40,162 bases of DNA from a virus: positions 1 through 40,162 of the IMG/VR virus record IMGVR_UViG_3300032893_000144; one strand, written 5' to 3'. Below the pieces are notes generated by a model, which saw only the letters and a list, made by a program, of their open reading frames with translations, did no database searches and was not told the DNA's origin. Position 1 is the first letter of the stretch; each line of letters begins with the position of its first letter. The translations under genes were made by a program, and so were the position numbers. This document shows, in pieces, positions 9,492-35,730 of this stretch.

Positions 9492-11375
9492 CTACGTCGG
9501 CGGGTGCCGCCTGCCAAACTTCGACACCCCCACCAGTACGGTTTTCTTCGGCGGGGGCGGCGAGCCGGGCGGCACGATCCCAATGCGACTCAAGTAACGC
9601 GCGATGTTCGCGTCCACGATCACTTCGGCGCCCGGCTTCTCGCCCGACTCCTGCTGCGGGCGCGGTTCTTTCCACATCACGCCCTGAGACAGGAGCTGCG
9701 TGCGCAGCTGATCGTTCCAACACATGACCGCGAGCGCTGCGGCCACGACTCGATCGTCGTTCTTGCCATCGGGAGCACCCACCGATCCCGTGTCGTTACG
9801 CCTCACCGAGTGCATCTCGTGCAGCATCGCGGCCGATGCCGGCAGCAGAATCCCGCGCTCGAGATAATCCCGCAGAGCGTTCATCATGCGCTCGCTGATC
9901 TCGGCGGTGGTTTTCGTGTGCAAAAAATTCGTCGGCCCGCCGATCGAGTCGGGGCGACGGAACAAATACTGACGGATCGCGCCGACCACTTGGCGCATGC
10001 CGCCTGAATCAGGCAAACGGCCCGAGGACGCGGCGCGCTTGAGGTTCTGAAACTCCTGCAGCACCGCCGCACCCGGTCCGTTGATCTCTACGTTGACGCA
10101 CGAGCGCACGTAGTAACCGGCGAGATACGCGAACACCCAGGCGGTCGCGTGCGTCGAGATATTGCGATCGGCAAATTCCGCGACCTGTTCAAGGCGGTTG
10201 TACCAGCAGCGCCACACCGAGACGACCGAGAAATCAGAATCAGGATTGCTCGCGTACGCAGGATCGACGCCGAGCACGTACCAGCCATCGGGCGCGGGCT
10301 CCGCCCACATCGTGAGGTTCGCGACCGGCTCACGCGCTGGCGTCAGTGTCGTATCGGAGAAATTCTGACCGCACTCGACGCGGTAGTGCTTGGCGTGTTT
10401 GTGACGTGCCTTGACGATTTTCTTCGCATCGAACAACGTGCGCGAGCGGAAAAACGCCGAGCCTGTCGAGATAAATGCATCCTCCTCCCGATGCGGAAAT
10501 TCCTGCTGTAGCTGCGCGGCGTCGGTGATCTTCTCAGCGCCCATCCATCGATACCACGCCCACTGGCAGTCGTTGATTTCCTCGCCGTAGCGCGTCAACA
10601 CATCGCGCGTGATCGCGGTCTCCTCGCGCGTCATGTGCCCTTTCGGTCCCCAGTAGTGCGCGTACATCTTGGAGTCGCGAGGCAATCCGTAGTAATCGTT
10701 CGCCCACCATGAGATGAAAATCGTTTTGACGGACATGGAGTTTTGCGCTTCGTCCCACATGTCCTTGAACCAATTCTCGCCGTTTGCAGTGGATTCCCAG
10801 TGGAAGAACCGCAGCGGATTCACCTGCGCGAACGAGGCGCGCAGCGCGTCTACTCCGGTGTCGTCCCCCCAGAATGCGACTTCCGTCGAGTGGCACTGGA
10901 TGAGCGCGCCAGATCGGCCCAGGCGCGACGAGCCCGACGCGCGTGAGCGCGTACCAGCCACCAGAAAACGTAACCGAGAGCCGTTGTCAAACACCAGTTG
11001 ATCGCGGTTGTCGTCCACGACTTCTCGTTGCCACTCATCATCGAGCCCAGATCGGTAGAGCGCGAGCGTCGTGCGAAACTGATTGCGTGAGGCTTCATCG
11101 TGCGTCACCAGTGCGCCGTTGACCGCGGGGTGTGAGTACGCGTTGTAGAGATCGATCGCGAGCGACATCGTGGAAATTCCGAGCTGCCGGGATTTCAGCG
11201 TAATAAACTCGTGTACGCCTTCCTTCAGTCCCTCGCGAATTTTCTGCAGCAGGATGAACTGCGAGCCGAGCAAACACTCACCGAGTGATGTAAGCCCGCG
11301 CTCCTTAGAATCGATTTGCAGCGCCTTGGTGAAGTAGTAGAAGTCCGACTCCGGCAGTAGTTCCTCGTCAGCCAT
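9492..11375 (-). CDS. Terminase large subunit
   Basis: 627 residues. Start is the ATG at 11375, which overlaps the stop of the PASTA gene (TGATG). ATPase: Walker A-like KSRQLGIST at 61-69 and Walker B-like region ending HSTEVAFW with Glu165. Nuclease: VLGVDPAY with Asp371, VNVEINGP with Glu430 and GKNDDRVV with Asp540/541, an RNase H-like metal set. It packages DNA into the prohead through the portal. No small terminase is recognisable next to it. Confidence 0.92.
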   Translation of the reverse strand: MADEELLPESDFYYFTKALQIDSKERGLTSLGECLLGSQFILLQKIREGLKEGVHEFITLKSRQLGISTMSLAIDLYNAYSHPAVNGALVTHDEASRNQFRTTLALYRSGLDDEWQREVVDDNRDQLVFDNGSRLRFLVAGTRSRASGSSRLGRSGALIQCHSTEVAFWGDDTGVDALRASFAQVNPLRFFHWESTANGENWFKDMWDEAQNSMSVKTIFISWWANDYYGLPRDSKMYAHYWGPKGHMTREETAITRDVLTRYGEEINDCQWAWYRWMGAEKITDAAQLQQEFPHREEDAFISTGSAFFRSRTLFDAKKIVKARHKHAKHYRVECGQNFSDTTLTPAREPVANLTMWAEPAPDGWYVLGVDPAYASNPDSDFSVVSVWRCWYNRLEQVAEFADRNISTHATAWVFAYLAGYYVRSCVNVEINGPGAAVLQEFQNLKRAASSGRLPDSGGMRQVVGAIRQYLFRRPDSIGGPTNFLHTKTTAEISERMMNALRDYLERGILLPASAAMLHEMHSVRRNDTGSVGAPDGKNDDRVVAAALAVMCWNDQLRTQLLSQGVMWKEPRPQQESGEKPGAEVIVDANIARYLSRIGIVPPGSPPPPKKTVLVGVSKFGRRHPPT

Positions 11376-12430
11376 CAGTGCACCAGCGGGACGGTCTGCG
11401 TCGTGTTGATGATGTTTGTTTGCGCCGGACCCGAGCACACCGTGAGTGTCACGCCGGTGTATAGCTGCTTGTTTGTTCCGCCCGCTGGGGTCTGCGCCGT
11501 CACGCTCGCGATCGGCTGATTGCCGATGACCCAGTGCACGGCCTGCACGTTCAGTTTCGCATCGACTATTTTTGCAATCGCATCGATCAGTGATTTGCCA
11601 ACAACATTCGGCACGTTGGTCGTGACGCTCGGATTCGGCGGCCCCATCGACACGGTGAGTTGCACGCCTTGCGACTGGTACTGCTGCTGAGTCCCGGCTG
11701 CGGGCAGCTGACCGATCACGTAGTTCCACGGCACAGTGCTCGAGTACTGGTAGTTGAATACCGGGTTCACCACAAACCCATCGTTCGAGAGGATCTGCAG
11801 CGCCTGCCCGAGCGTGAAGCCTTGGAAGCCAGCGCCGGTCGAGATGACGAGCGCGATCGACGCAGAGCCCTGCGCGACAACAGTTCCTGGAGCCACTGAC
11901 TGTGAAATCACATCGCCCGTTGGTACGGTCGTCGAAGTCGCCGTGCTGAGCGTCACGAGGAAGCCAGAGAGCTGCGTGAGCGCGGTGGCCTGCGGCAGTC
12001 CAACCACGTTCGGCGTGACGAGGTAGGCGACGACACTCAGCAGCACCGTCGTGCCGACGCTGACCGATACTCCGGCGAGCGGGGACTGGCTCACTACGGT
12101 ATCCGGGCTCCCGCCCGCCACGACGACGAAGGTGACTTGCGGGATGAGGCCGATGCTGGTGAGCGCAAATATCGCATTCGACTCGGCAAGTCCGATGACA
12201 TCTGGCACGACGACCGGCGTCGGGATCGTCGCCTCCTCAAGCAGGAAACGAATCTTCGGTACGATCGAGTGCCGCCGCTTGACAGGAGGTGGCGGACCGG
12301 GGCGAGCGATGAGGCGGACGAGATTTGCCGGTGGGCCCGGAACAAATACCGTCGTGAACAGGATCAGCAGCCGATACCGTACATCGGCTTTCTGCACCAC
12401 ATAGGGCGCGCCCGTGACAACGTGTGCCAC
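11375..12430 (-). CDS. PASTA-repeat protein (four repeats), probable virion protein
   Basis: 351 residues, GTG start with AAGG upstream. Repeats: 75-134 (VPDVIGLAESNAIFALTSIG ... VGTTVLLSVV), 139-198 (TPNVVGLPQATALTQL ... ASIALVIS), a degenerate one at 204-262 (GFTLGQALQILSNDGF ... VQLTVSMG), and 273-334 (VPNVVGKSLIDAIAKIVDAK ... GVTLTVCSG). Residues 1-70 are a separate Pro-rich N-terminal part with a hydrophobic run (RYRLLILFTTVFV). PASTA domains bind peptidoglycan stem peptides or beta-lactams in bacterial Ser/Thr kinases and PBPs. In a phage this suggests cell-wall binding or a structural rod. Coupled to TerL by TGATG. Confidence 0.75.
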   Translation of the reverse strand: MAHVVTGAPYVVQKADVRYRLLILFTTVFVPGPPANLVRLIARPGPPPPVKRRHSIVPKIRFLLEEATIPTPVVVPDVIGLAESNAIFALTSIGLIPQVTFVVVAGGSPDTVVSQSPLAGVSVSVGTTVLLSVVAYLVTPNVVGLPQATALTQLSGFLVTLSTATSTTVPTGDVISQSVAPGTVVAQGSASIALVISTGAGFQGFTLGQALQILSNDGFVVNPVFNYQYSSTVPWNYVIGQLPAAGTQQQYQSQGVQLTVSMGPPNPSVTTNVPNVVGKSLIDAIAKIVDAKLNVQAVHWVIGNQPIASVTAQTPAGGTNKQLYTGVTLTVCSGPAQTNIINTTQTVPLVH

Positions 12431-15157: not shown

Positions 15158-15158
15158 C

Positions 15159-15269
15159 TCACGACACCAGCCACAGCAGCAGCGCGAACACCGCGAGCGC
15201 CACCGTGCACACGGCGCCCGCCATCAGCGCCACCCGCATCGCATCCGTGAACGCTTCCACCTCAGTCAC
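15159..15269 (-). CDS. 36-residue single-pass membrane mini-protein
   Basis: GTG at 15269 (MTEVEAFTDAMRV) to TGA at 15159. Residues 9-36 are a continuous hydrophobic helix (ALMAGAVCTVALAVFALLLW then LVS). The start overlaps the end of the 51-residue gene by 8 bases and the stop is 2 bases from the GTG of the FN3 gene, so it sits in a continuous translational chain. Too short for most gene callers. Function unknown; a small holin-like or membrane accessory role is possible. Confidence 0.5.
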   Translation of the reverse strand: MTEVEAFTDAMRVALMAGAVCTVALAVFALLLWLVS

Positions 15270-15417
15270 TCACCGGGCACGCCACCCCCGGAACCGTCAG
15301 CACCACCCCGTCCGCGTACTTACACACGCTCTGCACAATCTGCCCGCCCGTCGGACTCGGCAAAATCTGCAAACTCGATGCGATCAGGGCGGCAATGACA
15401 ACGGCAAAGTGACGCAT
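15262..15417 (-). CDS. 51-residue putative secreted peptide with two cysteines
   Basis: ATG at 15417 to TGA at 15262, preceded by GGGAGGGA with seven-base spacing, one of the clearest ribosome sites in the region. The N-terminus MRHFAVVIAALIASSLQ looks like a signal peptide; the remainder is short and contains Cys32 and Cys47, which could form a disulfide in the periplasm. Overlaps the 3' end of the HNH gene by 34 bases, supporting the view that the endonuclease was inserted upstream. Function unknown. Confidence 0.55.
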   Translation of the reverse strand: MRHFAVVIAALIASSLQILPSPTGGQIVQSVCKYADGVVLTVPGVACPVSD

Positions 15418-16100
15418 GGCTTCCCTCCCAGTTCGGACGGCATCTTATCCGATTTGCGTAAATTGCAAGGCGCGCACAGCAACTGCAGGTTCTCAAGCAC
15501 GTGCTGCCCCCCTCGCGCGATCGGGACAATGTGATCGATGTGGTAGTTCACTCGGCCCGTGGGCAAGTAGCCAAGCGATGTCTGGCAGTACACGCAGCGC
15601 GCGGCTTGCACCTTCAGCAAGTGCCTCACTAAGCCGTGGTCCTTCCACTTCGGCACCCCAGCGGCACGGCGCGCTGCAGCCCGAGCACTACCGCGGGCGC
15701 GTACGCAGTCTCTGCAATAAGGGGAGCGACGCTCTGATCCGTCCGGATACTTTCCGTGGCGGGCAAACCATCCCCTCGGGTGCGCCTCTCCGCAGGCCGA
15801 GCATTTGATTTCAGGCTCCTCGCCGCGGCGAGGCTTGCGCTGGCTAGGAGCCCGATTCTTGATTTTCTCTAAGTACCGCCTCCTGACGCGTTCCCTGACC
15901 TTTTGCATTGCGATCGGATCAGCCTTCCTCTTGAGATACTTCTCACGCTCCTGCTCCGGAGTGCGCTTGTACCGGCCTTTGTATCGGCCGGCATACCTCG
16001 CGTTCAACTCTCGATACGCGGCATCCCTGCACCCCACACAGTACTTACTTCGAGTGGGCGCTCGGTAGCACCTCTGGCAAATCTTCGTGAAATTTTCCAT
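15384..16100 (-). CDS. HNH endonuclease (homing type)
   Basis: 238 residues from the ATG at 16100 (MENFTKICQR). The C-terminal domain has RCVYC (Cys169, Cys172), YHIDHIVPIARGG with His187, Asp189 and His190, then LENLQLLCAPCNLRKSD with Cys209/Cys212 and Asn213: a full HNH beta-beta-alpha-metal site with structural zinc Cys pairs. N-terminal Cys pairs (CQRC, CVGC; CSAC, CRDC) suggest extra zinc ribbons, with a very basic helical stretch at 40-95 for DNA binding. No good ribosome site precedes it. First gene of the late operon, so either homing or a packaging-related HNH; far from TerL, so I favour homing. Confidence 0.8.
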   Translation of the reverse strand: MENFTKICQRCYRAPTRSKYCVGCRDAAYRELNARYAGRYKGRYKRTPEQEREKYLKRKADPIAMQKVRERVRRRYLEKIKNRAPSQRKPRRGEEPEIKCSACGEAHPRGWFARHGKYPDGSERRSPYCRDCVRARGSARAAARRAAGVPKWKDHGLVRHLLKVQAARCVYCQTSLGYLPTGRVNYHIDHIVPIARGGQHVLENLQLLCAPCNLRKSDKMPSELGGKPCVTLPLSLPP

Positions 16101-16150
16101 GGGGAGATAATAACAAAAAAACATTTGGGGGAAGCAACGTGTCGGGCGAA

Positions 16151-16164
16151 CGGAAACGTTTCCG
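16151..16164. promoter_or_regulatory. 14-bp perfect palindrome, operator candidate
   Basis: CGGAAACGTTTCCG reads identically on both strands and is flanked by a CGGG / CCCG pair. It lies about 50 bases upstream of the HNH start. It could be a dimeric regulator site or form a small hairpin. Confidence 0.45.
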
Positions 16165-16244
16165 CCCGTCCCCATCGCCCTCCCGAGCCGCGCCAAAACT
16201 GAAAATCTAGAGTTTTCAATGTGTTACGCGGCGGCTACCCGGTC

Positions 16245-16281
16245 AATATGCTCCGCTGTCAGTGTATCCGGTGAGCATATT
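16245..16281. repeat. 9-bp inverted repeat
   Basis: AATATGCTC at 16245-16253 and GAGCATATT at 16273-16281 are exact reverse complements separated by 19 bases. Suitable for a DNA-binding dimer or a stem-loop; no U-tract follows directly. Confidence 0.5.
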
Positions 16282-16343
16282 TAGCCCATTACGGTTTAGG
16301 GTATCCAAAACTGAAATGTATAACCCCTTGATTCTCTTATATT

Positions 16344-16368
16344 CTTACAGTCCTTACAGTCTTACAGT
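16344..16368. repeat. Iteron-like CTTACAGT x3
   Basis: CTTACAGT occurs at 16344-16351, 16353-16360 and 16361-16368, start-to-start distances 9 and 8. The same CTTAC core recurs inverted at 16464-16485 with distances 9 and 8. Confidence 0.6.
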
Positions 16369-16392
16369 AGTTTTATGAGACTTATGGAATCC

Positions 16393-16435
16393 ATACAGTA
16401 TCCAACTGTATACCATACTGTATAAGCACTGTATA
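16393..16435. repeat. Iteron-like ACTGTATA x3 plus one inverted copy
   Basis: ACTGTATA occurs at 16405-16412, 16417-16424 and 16428-16435, spaced 12 and 11 bases, close to one helical turn. An inverted ATACAGT sits at 16393-16399. One-turn spacing places all copies on one face of the helix, as in iterons or cooperative operators. Confidence 0.6.
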
Positions 16436-16463
16436 AAAAATGGGCGCTATATGGAAAAGTAGT

Positions 16464-16485
16464 GTAAGGACCGTAAGACCGTAAG
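16464..16485. repeat. Inverted GTAAG x3 cluster
   Basis: GTAAG at 16464, 16473 and 16481; the reverse complement gives CTTAC, the core of the cluster at 16344-16368. The two clusters therefore form an inverted pair around the AT-rich ACTGTATA block. Confidence 0.55.
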
Positions 16486-16492
16486 GAAATCG

Positions 16493-16666
16493 CTACTGCT
16501 CTGCAACAATTAGCGCTGAGTAGATGGTTACGAGAGCCTGAACACGGTGGGTGAACAAAAGGAACCTGGGCTCGGATTGTGTCTCTCTCATAGCGTTAAT
16601 GTCATTACGAGCCTGCTGCTCAAGGGCTTTCAGGATTGTGGCGGCGCGCTGAACTGCTTCGTTCAT
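16493..16666 (-). CDS. Small helical protein, last gene of replication operon
   Basis: 57 residues from the ATG at 16666 (MNEAVQRAATILKALEQQAR), preceded by AAGGAGACCAA and overlapping the primase-helicase stop as ATGA. The open frame upstream of this ATG is a shadow of the primase-helicase gene. All-helical, mixed charge, no motif. Unknown function. Confidence 0.6.
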   Translation of the reverse strand: MNEAVQRAATILKALEQQARNDINAMRETQSEPRFLLFTHRVQALVTIYSALIVAEQ

Positions 16667-18861
16667 TTGGTCTCCTTTGGTCTGTAGACCCGAATTGAAT
16701 GGCCAGGCGGAGGGAAGGACATCCACTCGACTTTGCAGGTCCAGCCGAGCGCGGCGAGGATCTTGGCGCAGCGGATGTCGGATTTGTGGTCGCGGTCGAT
16801 GACCTTGATGGACATCAGTTCGTAGAGTTCGTGCAGCGTGACGGACTGGCGAGCTGAGAGGATCTGCGTAACCGGCTCCGACCAGCTGTCGGAAACGTGG
16901 CGGGCGAGCTGCTCGAGTTTCGCCGCAGCACGCGGGATCTGCCACCACTCACGTCCACTGCGGTAGAGCGCGACGGCTTCCGTCCAGAGCTGATCACGGC
17001 GCTCGCGGGTATAGGTGAGGTCGATGGCGCCACAAGCGACCGGCAGAAAGCGCGTGCCGCCCGTCTCGTCGGCCTGCCAGTAGGTCGAGTTGGTGGTGCC
17101 GACGAGCACGCACTGGCGCTTGTGGGACTGCGCGCGCCGCCCATAGGAGGCTCGGAACACGTCGTCACGGCGGGAAAGGCAGGATTTGACCGACTCGGTG
17201 GAGGATTTCAGCATCGAGGAGAGCTCGGACAGCTCCACGATCCAGTACCCCTGTAGGTCCTGTTCGAATTCCTTGGAGTCGATGCGGCGCGAGTTGTCGA
17301 GGTACCAGTCAGCTCCGAGGATCGCCAGCGTCGTGGACTTGCCGGCGTCCTGCTCGCCCTCGAATACCGGCATGGTGCGAAGAATGCACCCAGGGTCGTA
17401 AATGCGCGCGATGCAGCTGCAGAAAAATGAGACCGCGGCGGCGCGCATGTAATCGGAATCCGTGGCTCCGAGCGCACGGGTAAAAAATGTTGATACCCTG
17501 GAGGTGCCGTCGTGAGGCTCCAGTGACTCAAGATACTGCTTGATCGGATGCACTCGGTTCAGCTTGGCGTACCCCTCGATTGCCTCCAGCACCGTGGATG
17601 GATTCACCCGGTGCATGAATAGCTCGCCCTGCAGCATCACCGTAAGCTCGGTCAGATACTGGTCGGCATCCCAGTACACGTTATCGAGCAGCACGCGCCC
17701 AGAAAACTCGTCCCAGCAGAAACGCCCACGCGTCCGTGGGTGCAGCTTGAGGATCTGCTGAACGTTGTAGATGTTCGCCCACGGGCGCCCGCCCGTGCCG
17801 ATGGCGAGGTTGAAATGCTCCCACGCTTGGCCCTGAGTCGCGAATACGGGACGCTCAGCGCCGACAGGCGCCGCTGACGTTACCTCGGCAGGGGCGCTGG
17901 CAGAAGTCGGCGCTGCAGGCGCTGTAAGCTGCTGTGGAGGGCGGGCGGGATTCTTATAGGGGACGCAGTGTTCGCGCACGAACGTCTGCAGCGCAGCAGA
18001 TGTCGCCCCCTCGGCGATGAAGTCCGCCACATCCCAGCCGGGCGCGCGGTCGGATGTGTCGATCAGGCGGATATCACTGCCGCCGATCAGCGTGGCGATG
18101 CCCTCGGCGGCAGCGCGGCCGGCGTCGTCGGCATCCGGCCAGATAATCACACGTCGCCCAGCGAGCGGACTCCAGTCCGTATGCCGATACGCGGCAGCGC
18201 CCCCACACCAGGTCACGACGACAGCCTGGCGAGCGGGGTTGAGCACGCGGCGCGCGAGATCGCATTTAAGTTCCCCCTCCACGATGAGCACGGTGGACTG
18301 AGGATACTGGTGCAGCAGCTCGAGCCCGTAGAGCGGCCGAGGCGCGGGCCAGGCTTTGCGCTGCCAGCATCGGCCGTCGTAGGTCCACGGGCAGAAGGTC
18401 TTGCCGGTGTCGAGATGGTAGCGCGCGACGTAGAACAGCACCTCGCCGGTGGCATCCCGGTAGGCGTGCAGCGCGTAGGGCTCCCCGTGCTGCGGATGTG
18501 TCCCCGTAAAGCCGCCCGAGGCGCCGTTGGGCTTGACCGGCTGGTAGGGCTGCGTGGCTGACCGCGCTGGCGCAGAAACCGCCACGCTAGCCGGGTAGCG
18601 TGATTCCAGCTCCCGGTATGCGGCCCCCTGCTCGAGCCCGTGCGCCGCGGCGTAGAGCGATACCAGATCCCCGCCCTCGATGCCCGCGGCGAAGTCCGCC
18701 CACTTGCCGTTCGTCAGATTGATCGACAGCGAACTGCCGGCGTCCCCCGCGAGGTTCCCTACGACATATTCGCGCCCGCGTCGTTTACCGGCCGGGAACC
18801 ACTCGGGCACGAGCGTGTCAGCGCGCGCCAGCAATGCAGATGCCAGCCGCCCGAAGTCCAT
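16663..18861 (-). CDS. Toprim primase fused to VapE-type helicase
   Basis: 732 residues, ATG with GGGAG seven bases upstream. Residues 1-90 are a primase-like N-terminal domain (NGKWADFAAGIEGGDLVSLYA). Toprim at about 188-280: VLIVEGELK with Glu195 and WPDADDAGR with Asp243/245/246. A Pro/Ala linker (305-335) leads to a virulence-associated E-type SF3-like helicase: Walker A GEQDAGKST with Lys508, Walker B-like YWIVELSELS near 539-548, GTTN near 588-591, and GGTRFLPV with arginine finger candidate Arg604. It primes and unwinds at the phage fork. Sits in an operon with a helicase and a nuclease. Confidence 0.85.
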   Translation of the reverse strand: MDFGRLASALLARADTLVPEWFPAGKRRGREYVVGNLAGDAGSSLSINLTNGKWADFAAGIEGGDLVSLYAAAHGLEQGAAYRELESRYPASVAVSAPARSATQPYQPVKPNGASGGFTGTHPQHGEPYALHAYRDATGEVLFYVARYHLDTGKTFCPWTYDGRCWQRKAWPAPRPLYGLELLHQYPQSTVLIVEGELKCDLARRVLNPARQAVVVTWCGGAAAYRHTDWSPLAGRRVIIWPDADDAGRAAAEGIATLIGGSDIRLIDTSDRAPGWDVADFIAEGATSAALQTFVREHCVPYKNPARPPQQLTAPAAPTSASAPAEVTSAAPVGAERPVFATQGQAWEHFNLAIGTGGRPWANIYNVQQILKLHPRTRGRFCWDEFSGRVLLDNVYWDADQYLTELTVMLQGELFMHRVNPSTVLEAIEGYAKLNRVHPIKQYLESLEPHDGTSRVSTFFTRALGATDSDYMRAAAVSFFCSCIARIYDPGCILRTMPVFEGEQDAGKSTTLAILGADWYLDNSRRIDSKEFEQDLQGYWIVELSELSSMLKSSTESVKSCLSRRDDVFRASYGRRAQSHKRQCVLVGTTNSTYWQADETGGTRFLPVACGAIDLTYTRERRDQLWTEAVALYRSGREWWQIPRAAAKLEQLARHVSDSWSEPVTQILSARQSVTLHELYELMSIKVIDRDHKSDIRCAKILAALGWTCKVEWMSFPPPGHSIRVYRPKETK

Positions 18862-18886: not shown

Positions 18887-19078
18887 TTAGGAATCTGAGT
18901 GTTGCGAGAGCGCGAGCTGAATGAGGCGCCACGCCCGATCGTTGATCGCGCGCACCCCGGACCGAAACCGTTTGATCGAGGCTGGGTGATAACCCGAGGA
19001 GTCGGCGAGCTCGCGCACGGTCAGCTTCGCAGAGCGCATGCGGCGCACCAGTTCAGCCGCGCGAGGTGGGCGCTTCAT
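18887..19078 (-). CDS. Small helix-turn-helix DNA-binding protein
   Basis: 63 residues; the ATG at 19078 overlaps the preceding stop (TGATG). Residues 20-53 (LTVRELADSSGYHPASIKRF ... NDRAWRLI) form a Cro/CI-like HTH pattern with the recognition helix around HPASIKRFRSG. Very basic. It is the only recognisable transcription-factor-like protein in the window, so it may regulate the divergent promoters or the repeat region, or act as a Cro-like switch protein. Confidence 0.6.
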   Translation of the reverse strand: MKRPPRAAELVRRMRSAKLTVRELADSSGYHPASIKRFRSGVRAINDRAWRLIQLALSQHSDS

Positions 19079-25628: not shown

Positions 25629-26368
25629 CCGAAACGCTGTCCTCAAAGGAGCGCGTAATCGACGGGCACAGCATCTGCAACGTCGGCGAAAAGCGCTGCG
25701 ATATCGCCATAGCCCCGGCAGTCGATGGCGTCGGGGTCGTCCACTTGGAGCCCGGTCAGCGCTGGCTTATTCGCTGTTCGCGAATAGCGGATTCTGGTTC
25801 ATTGAACGAGATCCACGGCCCCGACGGCGCCATCGTCACGCAGGGAATCTATGACGAGGCGATGGAGGAGATTAGGAGGCTGCGGGACGACCTGTACAAC
25901 TCCGATTTAATCGGTATTGCTGCGAACAGTGAAGGCGTCAGACTCATGCAAGAGAATCGCCGGCTGCGCGCGGCGCTGGAGCGGATTGCAGACCCATTCC
26001 TAGATGCCGGGACCAAATGCCTGCAGGCCATTAGCCGCCTGCGCTACGAAGCCCGCGAAGCGCTCGCGGGACCCGCTGACGAGACGTCCGAGCCGCTATG
26101 TGGCTGCGAGAAGCCTATCGAATCGCTTCACGGTTTCGCGACATGCGGACGCTGCGGGCGCGTAATTCCAGAGAAAACGTCAAGTGAACAGAAGCAACAA
26201 GCCTATGACCGTCAGCCTCTCGATTACCTGCAGGCGCAGCGCGCCACGGTCAAGGACATGCTCGACAATTGCCTGCCAGGCGATCATCTGGGAGCTATGT
26301 CGCTGCAGTCACGGCTCGAAGAACTTGACCGCCTGATAAACGCTCAGAACGGGGAAGCATCTCAATGA
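25625..26368 (+). CDS. Composite early protein with coiled coil and Cys knuckle
   Basis: 247 residues, GTG start overlapping the previous stop. Residues 1-75 are a beta-like domain; 80-130 a charged helical stretch (MEEIRRLRDDL, RRLRAALERIADPFLDAG); 155-185 a Cys cluster (CGCEKPIESLHGFATCGRCG); 190-247 another helix rich in Gln/Leu. The mixed build suggests a fusion of small phage modules. Function unknown. Confidence 0.55.
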   Translation: MTETLSSKERVIDGHSICNVGEKRCDIAIAPAVDGVGVVHLEPGQRWLIRCSRIADSGSLNEIHGPDGAIVTQGIYDEAMEEIRRLRDDLYNSDLIGIAANSEGVRLMQENRRLRAALERIADPFLDAGTKCLQAISRLRYEAREALAGPADETSEPLCGCEKPIESLHGFATCGRCGRVIPEKTSSEQKQQAYDRQPLDYLQAQRATVKDMLDNCLPGDHLGAMSLQSRLEELDRLINAQNGEASQ

Positions 26369-26784
26369 ACAACAGAGGGAGACAGGAAATGGACGATGTA
26401 CATCCGATGCCTTGGGTGATCCTGGGAATTGTGGTTCTGGCGGTGCTTATCGCGGTCGGCATGGTCGGATGCCCTGCCTACAACGTTTATAGCGCTCGTA
26501 TGTCGGGCGAGGCCGAACTGGCACAGGCCACTCAGAATCGGCAGATCGCCGTGCAGGAGGCTCAGGCGAAGGCTGAGGCCGCAGTGCAGCTGGCACAGGC
26601 CGAAGTGAATCGAGCCAAGGGGGTTGCCCAGGCGAATCAGATCATCGCGGACAGCCTAAAGGGCAATGAGGCTTATCTGCGGTATCTGTGGATTACCGAG
26701 GTCGCTGGAAACAATAAGGGTGCCAGTGTCATCTATGTTCCGACCGAAGCGAATCTGCCCATCCTTGAGGCAGGTAAACGCTGA
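26365..26784 (+). CDS. Membrane-anchored prohibitin/SPFH-like protein
   Basis: 139 residues if the coupled ATG at 26365 is used; an ATG at 26389 has the better ribosome site (AGGGAGACAGGAA) and may be the true start. One membrane segment (WVILGIVVLAVLIAVGMVG), then a long helix rich in Ala/Gln/Glu (about 45-100: GEAELAQATQNRQIAVQEAQ, AEVNRAKGVAQANQ), then a short domain ending VIYVPTEANLPILEAG. Helix and tail resemble the C-terminal half of SPFH/prohibitin proteins. Such phage proteins may act on the inner membrane or FtsH. Role inferred only. Confidence 0.6.
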   Translation: MNNRGRQEMDDVHPMPWVILGIVVLAVLIAVGMVGCPAYNVYSARMSGEAELAQATQNRQIAVQEAQAKAEAAVQLAQAEVNRAKGVAQANQIIADSLKGNEAYLRYLWITEVAGNNKGASVIYVPTEANLPILEAGKR

Positions 26785-28573: not shown

Positions 28574-28648
28574 AGGACTGTAGCTCAGCGGTAGAGCAGG
28601 CGGTCGATAACCGCCAGGTCGTCAGTTCAATCCTGACCAGTCCTACCA
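28574..28648 (+). tRNA. tRNA-Ile (anticodon GAT), unusual C33
   Basis: 75 bases, full cloverleaf: acceptor AGGACTG/CAGTCCT, D arm GCTC-AGCGGTA-GAGC, anticodon arm GGCGG-TCGATAA-CCGCC, T arm GTCAG-TTCAATC-CTGAC, discriminator A and encoded CCA. Anticodon GAT at 28606-28608 reads Ile codons ATC/ATT. All stems pair perfectly, but base 33 is C instead of the near-universal U. It sits 48 bases before the integrase gene, so it may be a translation helper, an attachment site, or both. Confidence 0.85.
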
Positions 28649-28696
28649 CCGGATAACTCAGTAGCATATACAGTTTGCTGCGGCGCGGACTACTGG

Positions 28697-29566
28697 ATGG
28701 ACACGCTGGAAACCATGCGAATAATAGGGCAGATGGACACACAACCCGCTCCATCTGCCGTCACCGTCGCCACCATCCTCGAGCGCTACGAGCGCGAGTA
28801 CGTACCAACGCTAGCGCCACGCACGCAGGTCGATTACCGTCGCCATATCGAGAAACTGAAGGTCGCGTTCGGGGACCGGAATCCCGATGAGATGAAGCCG
28901 CGCGACTTCGCGGCGTTCCTCAACGTACCAAAAGGAAAGATCCAGCGCGTTCGCCAGCTGGCGGTGCTGAGCTCAGCGTTCACGCAGTCGGTGTCGGTGT
29001 GGTTCTGGCAGGATCGCAACGTGTTGCGCGACGTGAAACGCATCAAATCCAAGCCGCGCGACCGGCTCGTGCTGGACGCTGAGTTTGAAGCCTGCAAGGC
29101 CATGGCACCGAAGCGTGTTCAGCTCGCGATGATGCTCGCCGTCATGACGGGGCAGCGCCAGGGTGACATCATCCGTTTCACCTGGGCCGCTATTCGTGAC
29201 GGCGCGCTGCATCTGAGACAGGCCAAGACTGGAAAGCGCCTGGCGATCGCGCTCAATCCGGAGCTAAAGCGCGTACTCGGTGAGTGCTGGAAACTGAAGG
29301 GCGGCGGGGGCGAGTACATTCTGCCGACCCGATCCGGCAAGCCGTACACGTCCGAGGGGTTCCGTGCCTGCTGGCAGCGAGTCCAGCGCAAATGGCTCGC
29401 GAGCGGCGGCGCTGGCTTCCACTTCCACGACATCAGGGCACTCGCGGCGACAAAATGCGCCACGCCCGAAATAGCCATGCGGCTACTCGGACACTCGAAT
29501 ATCGCGATGACGCTGCGGGTTTACCGCCGCGGCCCGGAGCGCGTTGAGGCGCTGAAGATCGGCTAG
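28697..29566 (+). CDS. int: Tyrosine-recombinase integrase
   Basis: 289 residues. An N-terminal SAM-like core-binding domain (VTVATILERYEREYVPTLAP ... YRRHIEKLK) precedes the catalytic domain with Arg154 (TGQRQGDII), Lys177 (QAKTGK), His244 and Arg247 (FHFHDIRALAA), His266 (LLGHSN) and nucleophile Tyr276 (RVYRRG). The set is complete. An ATG at 28733 preceded by AGGG is an alternative start. It catalyses integration between attP and attB, with the adjoining tRNA as candidate attP. Its TAG shares CTAG with the stop of the opposing gene, so the two operons end face to face with no space. Confidence 0.9.
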   Translation: MDTLETMRIIGQMDTQPAPSAVTVATILERYEREYVPTLAPRTQVDYRRHIEKLKVAFGDRNPDEMKPRDFAAFLNVPKGKIQRVRQLAVLSSAFTQSVSVWFWQDRNVLRDVKRIKSKPRDRLVLDAEFEACKAMAPKRVQLAMMLAVMTGQRQGDIIRFTWAAIRDGALHLRQAKTGKRLAIALNPELKRVLGECWKLKGGGGEYILPTRSGKPYTSEGFRACWQRVQRKWLASGGAGFHFHDIRALAATKCATPEIAMRLLGHSNIAMTLRVYRRGPERVEALKIG

Positions 29567-32123: not shown

Positions 32124-32239
32124 CACGCACCCCGCTTGCGACGGATCACGGGCGGAGTTGATTTCGCCCGTGGCTTAAATTCGAAATTGATCGGCGTGCC
32201 GTTCTGCTTCGGCGGACGCGGGACACTAGGCTTCTTCAT
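32123..32239 (-). CDS. 38-residue basic Pro-rich mini-protein
   Basis: ATG at 32239 to TGA at 32123. Sequence runs MKKPSVPRPPKQNGTPINFE and ends RRKRGA; about a quarter of residues are Lys or Arg. It overlaps the upstream gene by 14 bases and its stop overlaps the next ATG (TGATG). Seen in no long open frame, but the coupling on both sides argues that it is translated. Function unknown. Confidence 0.5.
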   Translation of the reverse strand: MKKPSVPRPPKQNGTPINFEFKPRAKSTPPVIRRKRGA

Positions 32240-34165: not shown

Positions 34166-35730
34166 TGCACCTGGAAACCCTGACCTGTCAGGAACGCTTT
34201 GGCAGCATCGGTCGAGATGCCGTGCTTATCCGCATACGCCTTGAGCGTAGCGGCGCTCACGGTCGCCTTGGGAGGACCAGTCCCTGTCAGTGTCGCCGCG
34301 TGCTCGACGCTATAGCCATTTTTAAGGGCATCCATGACAGCTTGATTGCCGGCCATCACGGCTTGCGTGACTTTCTTGCTGGCGTCGATCGCGGCCTGAA
34401 GCTCCGGCACGCTCATCGTGTCAGGGAACATGTTGTGCGCCTGGGCGCGGACCGTCTCGGTCGCCTGCCCGGTGCGCGCGAGCACGTTCGTCAGGTCGGC
34501 GCGGGTGTCCTCGAGGATCGTCACGTAGCGCTGAATATCTGGATTCGCATACACGTGCTGCTGGATGCCGATGCGCACCGCATTGGCTGTCTTGCTGTCC
34601 CCGAGGTTCACTTTCTGCGCGGCGGATAGCAGCTGATCGTAGAGTCCGCCCGGCTCAGTGAGGGCGGTGGCGCTGGCCTCTATGTTGCCCTCACGGCGGG
34701 CCACCTGCGTTGCTTCAGTCATCGTCGCGCGAGCGCCAGCCTGCGCTCCGACTACCGCACCAGCGCCGCCCATCTGCTTGATCTCGTCGGCTTTGATCGC
34801 TTGATAGCGATTGCGCAGGGCGCTCTTCCCCATGCCAAATCCTGGATCGCGCCCCGTAACGATCGCCGTTTTAGCGAGCGTCCGCAGCTGGTCGTCGGTC
34901 ATGTTATCGGTCGCTTGGGCAGCGACCGCGGCATCCTTCTTCCTCGCCAACTCCAGTTTCACCCGCTCGTCGTACGATTCCTTATCGAGCTTGTACTGGT
35001 TCTCGGCGAGCTGCTGAGCGGCGGTGCGGATGTGCTCCTGCGTCTCGAGTAACTGCTGGCTGACCTTGATCTCGTCTCCCGTCATGTCGTGCGCGGCCTG
35101 CAGTGCCTTGAGGTCAGCATCGGGCCGGCCGGCATACGCCTTCTTCATCTCCTCGAAAATCTTGAGCTGCTGTTCCTGCCTGTCCTTGAAGCGCTCATAA
35201 GCGTCCGCGTAGGCTTTCTGGGCGTTCTCGTACGCCTGCTGGTTGCCAGCCAAGTACCCCTGAACGGTGCCCGTGGTGGCCGCGAGCATCGCTCCTGCAT
35301 CGAGCTGGGTGAGCTTGCCTCCGAATGCGGCCATGAGCAGAAGAGGCGCCATCCGTTGCAGTGGATTCGATGTCTGCTGTGGAGGCGCTGGCGGCTGCTC
35401 CGAGAGCGCGTCGATTTCGGCCTGAGTCAGACGCTCCTGCTGCGCCTGATTGGCGCGCACGTCCTGCACGTAGGCTTTTTCTCCGGCACGCAGGTCCTGC
35501 AGGTCATCGAGTTCGGTCTGAGAGAGCCTATCGAGCGCACGGCGTTCGGTGTCCGATGGCTGGCCGATCTTGGCGAGGTCGGGCGGCTTCGGGGCTTGGC
35601 GCTCAAGTGCATCGATCGTCGCATCGTCTGCCTGTGGCAGCGGTGGTGGGATCGCGAGCGCCTCGTACTGCGCCCACGTCGGGGCGCCACCGTTAGCGGC
35701 TGCGGAGACGACTGAAGGGTCAGCGCTCAT
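34162..35730 (-). CDS. Internal virion protein candidate, coiled-coil rich
   Basis: 522 residues. A hydrophobic patch near residue 120 ([20 protein letters not shown]) is followed by a long coiled coil ([58 protein letters not shown]). Ends with a small domain ([19 protein letters not shown]). Such helical proteins are packed in podovirus heads and form the ejection channel. Start ATG at 35730 overlaps the HNH stop as ATGA. Confidence 0.55.

Follow-up and report, generated by a model that had tools for sequence, protein, structure and literature searches.

The noncoding gap at positions 16101-16492 of this virus genome, with its core at 16344-16485, is very probably a replication origin of the PICI/SaPI type, at which theta replication would begin once the DNA has been melted by the phage's own primase-helicase. 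The window, meaning the whole stretch of DNA that was analysed, is the entire 40,162-bp virus record. Because it encodes an integrase, RecE-like and RecT-like recombination proteins, terminase, portal and a major head protein, in addition to a DEAD-type helicase, a primase-VapE fusion and an HNH nuclease, we take it to be a temperate tailed phage. A PICI is a satellite without capsid or packaging genes of its own; this record carries terminase, portal and major head genes, and our claim therefore concerns the type of origin and not the type of element. An earlier note had read the gap as a possible origin, and that reading is supported by the repeat layout, by a site 3' of an initiator-type primase-helicase gene, by a GC-skew minimum in the core and by the presence of the layout in other phages. 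The result gives an uncharacterised phage a specific candidate origin and initiator that can be put to the test. Origins of this kind are already known, and their breadth among intact phages goes beyond the published claim, which calls into question a statement restricting such an organisation to phage satellites.

Repeats and base composition of the gap

The gap is bounded by an HNH gene (15384-16097) on one side and by a small ORF (16493-16666) on the other, and it lies directly 3' of the primase-VapE gene (16663-18861, minus strand) and this small, apparently coupled ORF. Its sequence features are as follows.

16151-16164, no strand: 14-bp palindrome CGGAAACGTTTCCG, read from the sequence
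16193-16204 and 16305-16316, plus strand: exact 12-nt direct repeat CCAAAACTGAAA
16245-16253/16273-16281, no strand: 9-bp perfect inverted repeat AATATGCTC/GAGCATATT with a 19-bp spacer
16344-16368, minus strand: outer iteron triplet, mirrored; ACTGTAAG three times, spacing 9, 8
16352-16441, no strand: proposed DNA unwinding element, the 90 bp highest in AT in the record; 67.8% AT, next 58.9%
16392-16399, minus strand: inverted inner copy ACTGTATG, approximate (1 mismatch)
16405-16435, plus strand: inner array inside the AT-rich core; ACTGTATA three times, at 16405, 16417 and 16428, spacing 12, 11
16461-16485, plus strand: outer iteron triplet adjoining the initiator gene; AGTGTAAG, ACCGTAAG, ACCGTAAG at 16461, 16470 and 16478, spacing 9, 8

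Copies of CTTACAGT start at 16344, 16353 and 16361 (spacing 9, 8). These three copies, the inverted AGTGTAAG/ACCGTAAG/ACCGTAAG set, the three ACTGTATA with one inverted copy and, further left, the palindrome and the 9-bp inverted repeat had all been described in the earlier note and were all found in place; the 12-nt direct repeat was absent from it. The hexamer ACTGTA is common to the outer words (ACTGTAAG and AGTGTAAG/ACCGTAAG) and the inner word ACTGTATA, and in the whole record just three words outside the patch come within one mismatch of ACTGTAAG. The spacing of 11-12 bp puts the inner copies on the same face of the helix. The palindrome formed a hairpin no better than in shuffles, and the fold of the inverted repeat (16245-16281) gave z=-1.5.

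The strength of the array was scored with an iteron detector that counts 7-mers recurring on both strands, one mismatch permitted. The patch scored 7.5, the top of the 40 kb (runner-up 5.5; mean 2.2, sd 0.85), and 0 of 300 dinucleotide-preserving shuffles equalled this score; a stricter detector, limited to exact 7-mers, gave no signal at the patch. As a positive control, the same detector was run blind on the 40.7 kb of the Streptococcus thermophilus phage Sfi21, in which it placed the annotated 302-bp origin (34487-34784) first (9.3 vs 4.5). A passage of PMC6356513, citing Foley 1998, describes this element as an experimentally defined origin that confers phage resistance when cloned. Like the gap studied here, it is noncoding and immediately follows a helicase gene, in this case of D5 type, with mirrored iterons around an AT-rich core at a tandem spacing of 9, 8; it differs in its iteron (GGTTACT/AGTAACC vs ACTGTAAG) and in its helicase, which matches Pox_D5/DUF5906 and not the VapE model.

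PICI origins are described as always having two iteron sets around an AT-rich region, 3' of rep, and the cloned rep-ori module of one PICI kept a plasmid maintained (PMC6092414). The (pri-)rep product of SaPIs and PICIs is a self-loading helicase (PMC6092414, PMC7581432). As in the origins of SaPIbov1, SaPI1, SaPI5 and EcCICFT073, where two iteron sets flank an AT-rich region 3' of (pri-)rep, the array found here lies directly 3' of the initiator gene and its two outer sets flank an AT-rich core. It differs from them in its setting, a temperate phage that is intact and encodes its own head and terminase proteins, in the sequence of its iterons and in having an additional set, spaced by about one helical turn, within the core.

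The outer triplets flank the 90 bp with the highest AT content in the record. The term AT-rich, which had been applied to the region as a whole, holds well for this core (67.8% AT over 90 bp from 16352) and more weakly for the whole interval, which is 56% AT; its left segment, 16101-16335, is 50% AT.

The cumulative GC-skew minimum of the record falls within the array and its AT-rich core, at 16418 in the raw and 16430 in the detrended curve and without a change of gene strand, so that the skew check for an origin suggested in the earlier note came out in its favour. The left-right skew switch over 3 kb at the patch ranked first of the 804 positions tested. Coding-strand bias fails to explain this switch, since the genes on either side of the patch are on the same strand, minus-strand genes running leftward from about 21.3 kb. 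At the 5-kb scale a stronger switch is seen at 22.6 kb, where gene orientation changes, and the skew is therefore supportive and not proof. The skew minimum of Sfi21 lies about 1.1 kb off its known origin, which indicates the precision to be expected of skew. The cumulative maximum of the present record is at 32222, where replication might terminate should theta replication proceed on a circular genome.

Proposed initiator and proposed mode of action

The features on the initiator side of the gap are these.

16493-16666, minus strand: small ORF of 57 aa; its start and the stop of the primase gene overlap in ATGA
16663-18861, minus strand: TOPRIM-like primase/VapE-type helicase fusion of 732 aa, the proposed initiator, PriRep-like (Pfam, PHROG, PDB)
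16678-16881, minus strand: C-terminal predicted winged helix (residues 661-728, AlphaFold2 model), the proposed iteron-binding domain

The C-terminal half of the fusion is VapE-like (PF05272, E=2e-63), and PHROG primase and helicase families were matched. The helicase half had its best phmmer match in PDB 7pds_A (E=6e-41), and the AlphaFold2 model of the fusion, which is of moderate quality (mean pLDDT 71, pTM 0.44), had its best PDB fold match in 7pds, 'PriRep1 with dsDNA' (E=7e-24). By homology and this fold match, the initiator appears to belong to the Rep/PriRep group of self-loading hexameric helicases. PriRep1, a staphylococcal-island-type initiator and the nearest solved structure of the helicase half, was solved with dsDNA; it shows about 24% identity to the fusion in the structural alignment and is not known to share a specificity for these iterons.

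The C-terminus of the model consists of helices 661-668, 676-682 and 692-704 followed by strands 707-713 and 722-728 (block pLDDT ~63-84). This predicted winged helix may be the iteron binder, by analogy with SaPI Rep and Cch2, which contact the origin through their C-terminal domains (PMC7581432). The earlier note had named the HTH protein at 18887-19078, beside the primase-helicase, as candidate binder; we correct this, the C-terminus of the primase-helicase being the likelier one. The HTH-like protein (63 aa, minus strand, upstream of the primase gene) had no family match in Pfam or PHROG and is a possible Cro-like regulator. The putative SCCmec Cch2 origin is similar in that the initiator helicase uses its C-terminal domain to bind repeats downstream of the operon (PMC7581432), and differs in having three direct AAGTG repeats only, a separate polymerase-type primase and a helicase of another branch. 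The start-stop overlap of the small ORF suggests translational coupling to the primase gene, and a small gene between helicase and iterons is also found in several relatives.

Drawing on PICI and SCC work, we propose that the product of the primase-VapE gene immediately upstream attaches to both mirrored triplets by its C-terminal winged helix, so that one helicase ring would assemble on each side of the core. Binding on both sides would strain and then melt the AT-rich core, with the inner ACTGTATA sites possibly serving as extra contacts, as a melting aid or in control. Both rings would then load onto the opened strands, the N-terminal TOPRIM-like domain would prime, and host polymerase would extend in both directions, giving theta replication.

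Recurrence of the layout in other phages

Helicase-gene loci of other phages were surveyed for the same organisation. The 23 loci of a first round came from metagenomes and from phages infecting Pseudomonadota, Bacillota, Bacteroidota and Actinomycetota. In 14 of the 23, the top iteron window of the whole locus was found just past the 3' end of the helicase gene, and 15 of 32 gaps scored higher than every one of 300 shuffles. A held-out set was then formed from 80 viral contigs retrieved with a VapE alignment, giving 39 non-redundant gaps. The locus-wide maximum started within a zone from -60 to +400 relative to the helicase stop in 30/39 (expected 8.5%; binomial P=7e-25), where the test counts the place of that maximum, the zone was widened to +400 after the data had been seen (first count 11/39), and the loci are not fully independent, as TGTCCCA-family words are common to some of them. 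The first count was low because many of these phages have a small gene following the helicase, which puts the gap beyond the original zone. Shuffles were beaten 100 times out of 100 by 29 of the 39 gaps.

The iteron words differ by phage (for example TGTCCCA, GTAAACG, CGTGCCT, GTTACCG, CCACCTC) while the layout persists, and one word per phage fits recognition by each phage's own initiator. A search for a motif shared across the origins returned simple A-rich or GC-rich words only, leaving the layout as the one common element. The genes for related fusions in Acidovorax Aval, L008, L009 and Phocaeicola BV741P4 are not followed by such an array on their 3' side, and the rule is accordingly common and not universal. 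It would nevertheless help to name candidate origins in many phages, by a search for mirrored iterons in the first gap that follows a VapE/D5-type helicase gene on its 3' side. In L002 (7625-7954) and in the same gaps of L003-L006, mirrored TGCAAAC-type iterons surround a TATATATATCTATCTATATAG core 3' of the gene; these loci have the primase half alone in common with this phage, the helicase half being different, and Pfam gave no DUF927 confirmation for the helicase half of L002.

To find the iteron itself elsewhere, all viral contigs were scanned for two tandem copies of either version. The scan returned 141 stretches, about the number expected by chance for so large a collection, and only one of them, L147, has a VapE gene; the gap that immediately follows this gene on its 3' side contains the iterons, among them a 22-nt string identical to the window's CTTACAGTCCTTACAGTCTTAC. 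The L147 protein is 33% identical to the fusion over 736 columns spanning both halves (E 9e-119); no other relative found here matched both halves over the full length as strongly. Its two iteron sets flank a long AT-rich stretch and are mostly in the same orientation, not mirrored. The conservation of the repeats that the earlier note would expect in relatives is seen for the layout in other phages and for the iteron in L147; mirroring does not extend to L147, and the words differ elsewhere. Relatives sought through the head, terminase and HNH proteins were on contigs too short to extend to the patch, and a search of genome contigs gave one N-terminal relative only. Comparison of the gap DNA with known phages produced a single 22-nt match (E=0.4), a terminator-like site at a gene end in the primase region of Nonagvirus phages, which has no iteron layout and was put down to chance.

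We further suggest, tentatively and as less probable than not, that the PICI-type origin is the general one of tailed phages with VapE/D5-type primase-helicases and not a mark of satellites, satellites deriving or sharing it, and that the inner one-turn set here reflects a second binding mode. Such a mode, in which the initiator might melt the DNA or capture a single strand, is absent from PICI descriptions. The inner ACTGTATA triplet within the core was not seen at the same place in most relatives; by eye, several phages seem to have a triplet spaced 11-12 bp at a distance of about 43 bp from a mirrored group spaced 8-9 bp. The suggestion bears on the source of satellite replication modules and on how cross-firing between satellite and helper-phage origins is avoided or caused.

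Other readings of the gap and other loci

The alternative that survives best, although we consider it unlikely, is a division of the gap, with 16336-16492 as the origin and 16101-16335 separately as a late promoter and operator. The left segment is not AT-rich (50%), it has a palindrome and inverted repeat of its own, and the late genes begin immediately to its left; it could include a late promoter. However, it has no promoter-like match, and the iteron-related 12-mer CCAAAACTGAAA stands on either side of the inverted repeat, from which the segment may itself belong to the origin.

That the repeats as a whole are operators, at which a phage regulator such as the 63-aa HTH protein (18887-19078) switches on the leftward packaging and head genes, is very unlikely. 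The gap does separate the replication genes from the HNH-terminase-head genes, all of them read leftward, and the palindrome and inverted repeat fall within 16151-16281. In 15950-16750, however, promoter-like matches (1 vs 0.6 expected) and terminator-like matches (0 vs 0.9) were at chance level; promoters were scored with a sigma-70-like consensus, and the sole match was outside the gap, none rising above chance within it. The late switch that the earlier note had offered beside the origin therefore drew no support. Operators would also leave the GC-skew minimum unexplained, the array layout follows VapE helicase genes across phages with different downstream genes, and the small HTH protein is without a family match.

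A cos or pac site for the terminase small subunit is more improbable still. The gap adjoins an HNH endonuclease gene, cos is often near HNH-terminase genes, and in VarioGold the right cohesive end is annotated immediately past the HNH gene; but that cos is on the terminase side of HNH, here 15158-15383, and not on the primase side, iteron arrays remain in phages whose HNH and terminase genes are distant from the helicase gene, and the skew minimum is again unaccounted for. By the same analogy, 15158-15383 is a possible cos region. SOS (LexA) or other host-repressor operators governing induction can be set aside, since the resemblance of ACTGTATA and TACAGTAT to LexA-box halves is met by 0 CTGT-N8-ACAG sites in the whole window and by a half-site order and tandem spacing (8-9 and 11-12 bp) that do not fit.

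Further loci of the record were noted alongside the proposed PICI-type origin. Just before the terminase large subunit, a 351-aa ORF (11375-12430, minus strand) with four PASTA domains (Pfam E=3e-32) overlaps the longest terminase ORF, an odd location for cell-wall-binding repeats. The product of 26365-26784 (plus strand) has a strong PHROG match to 'protease' (4e-51) and weaker matches to lipoprotein and Rz-like spanin, making the name doubtful. A complete tRNA-Ile (GAT) gene (28574-28648, plus strand) lies directly before the integrase gene (28697-29566, plus strand) and is a likely attachment site; an exact ACTGTATA is present between the two, at 28667-28674.
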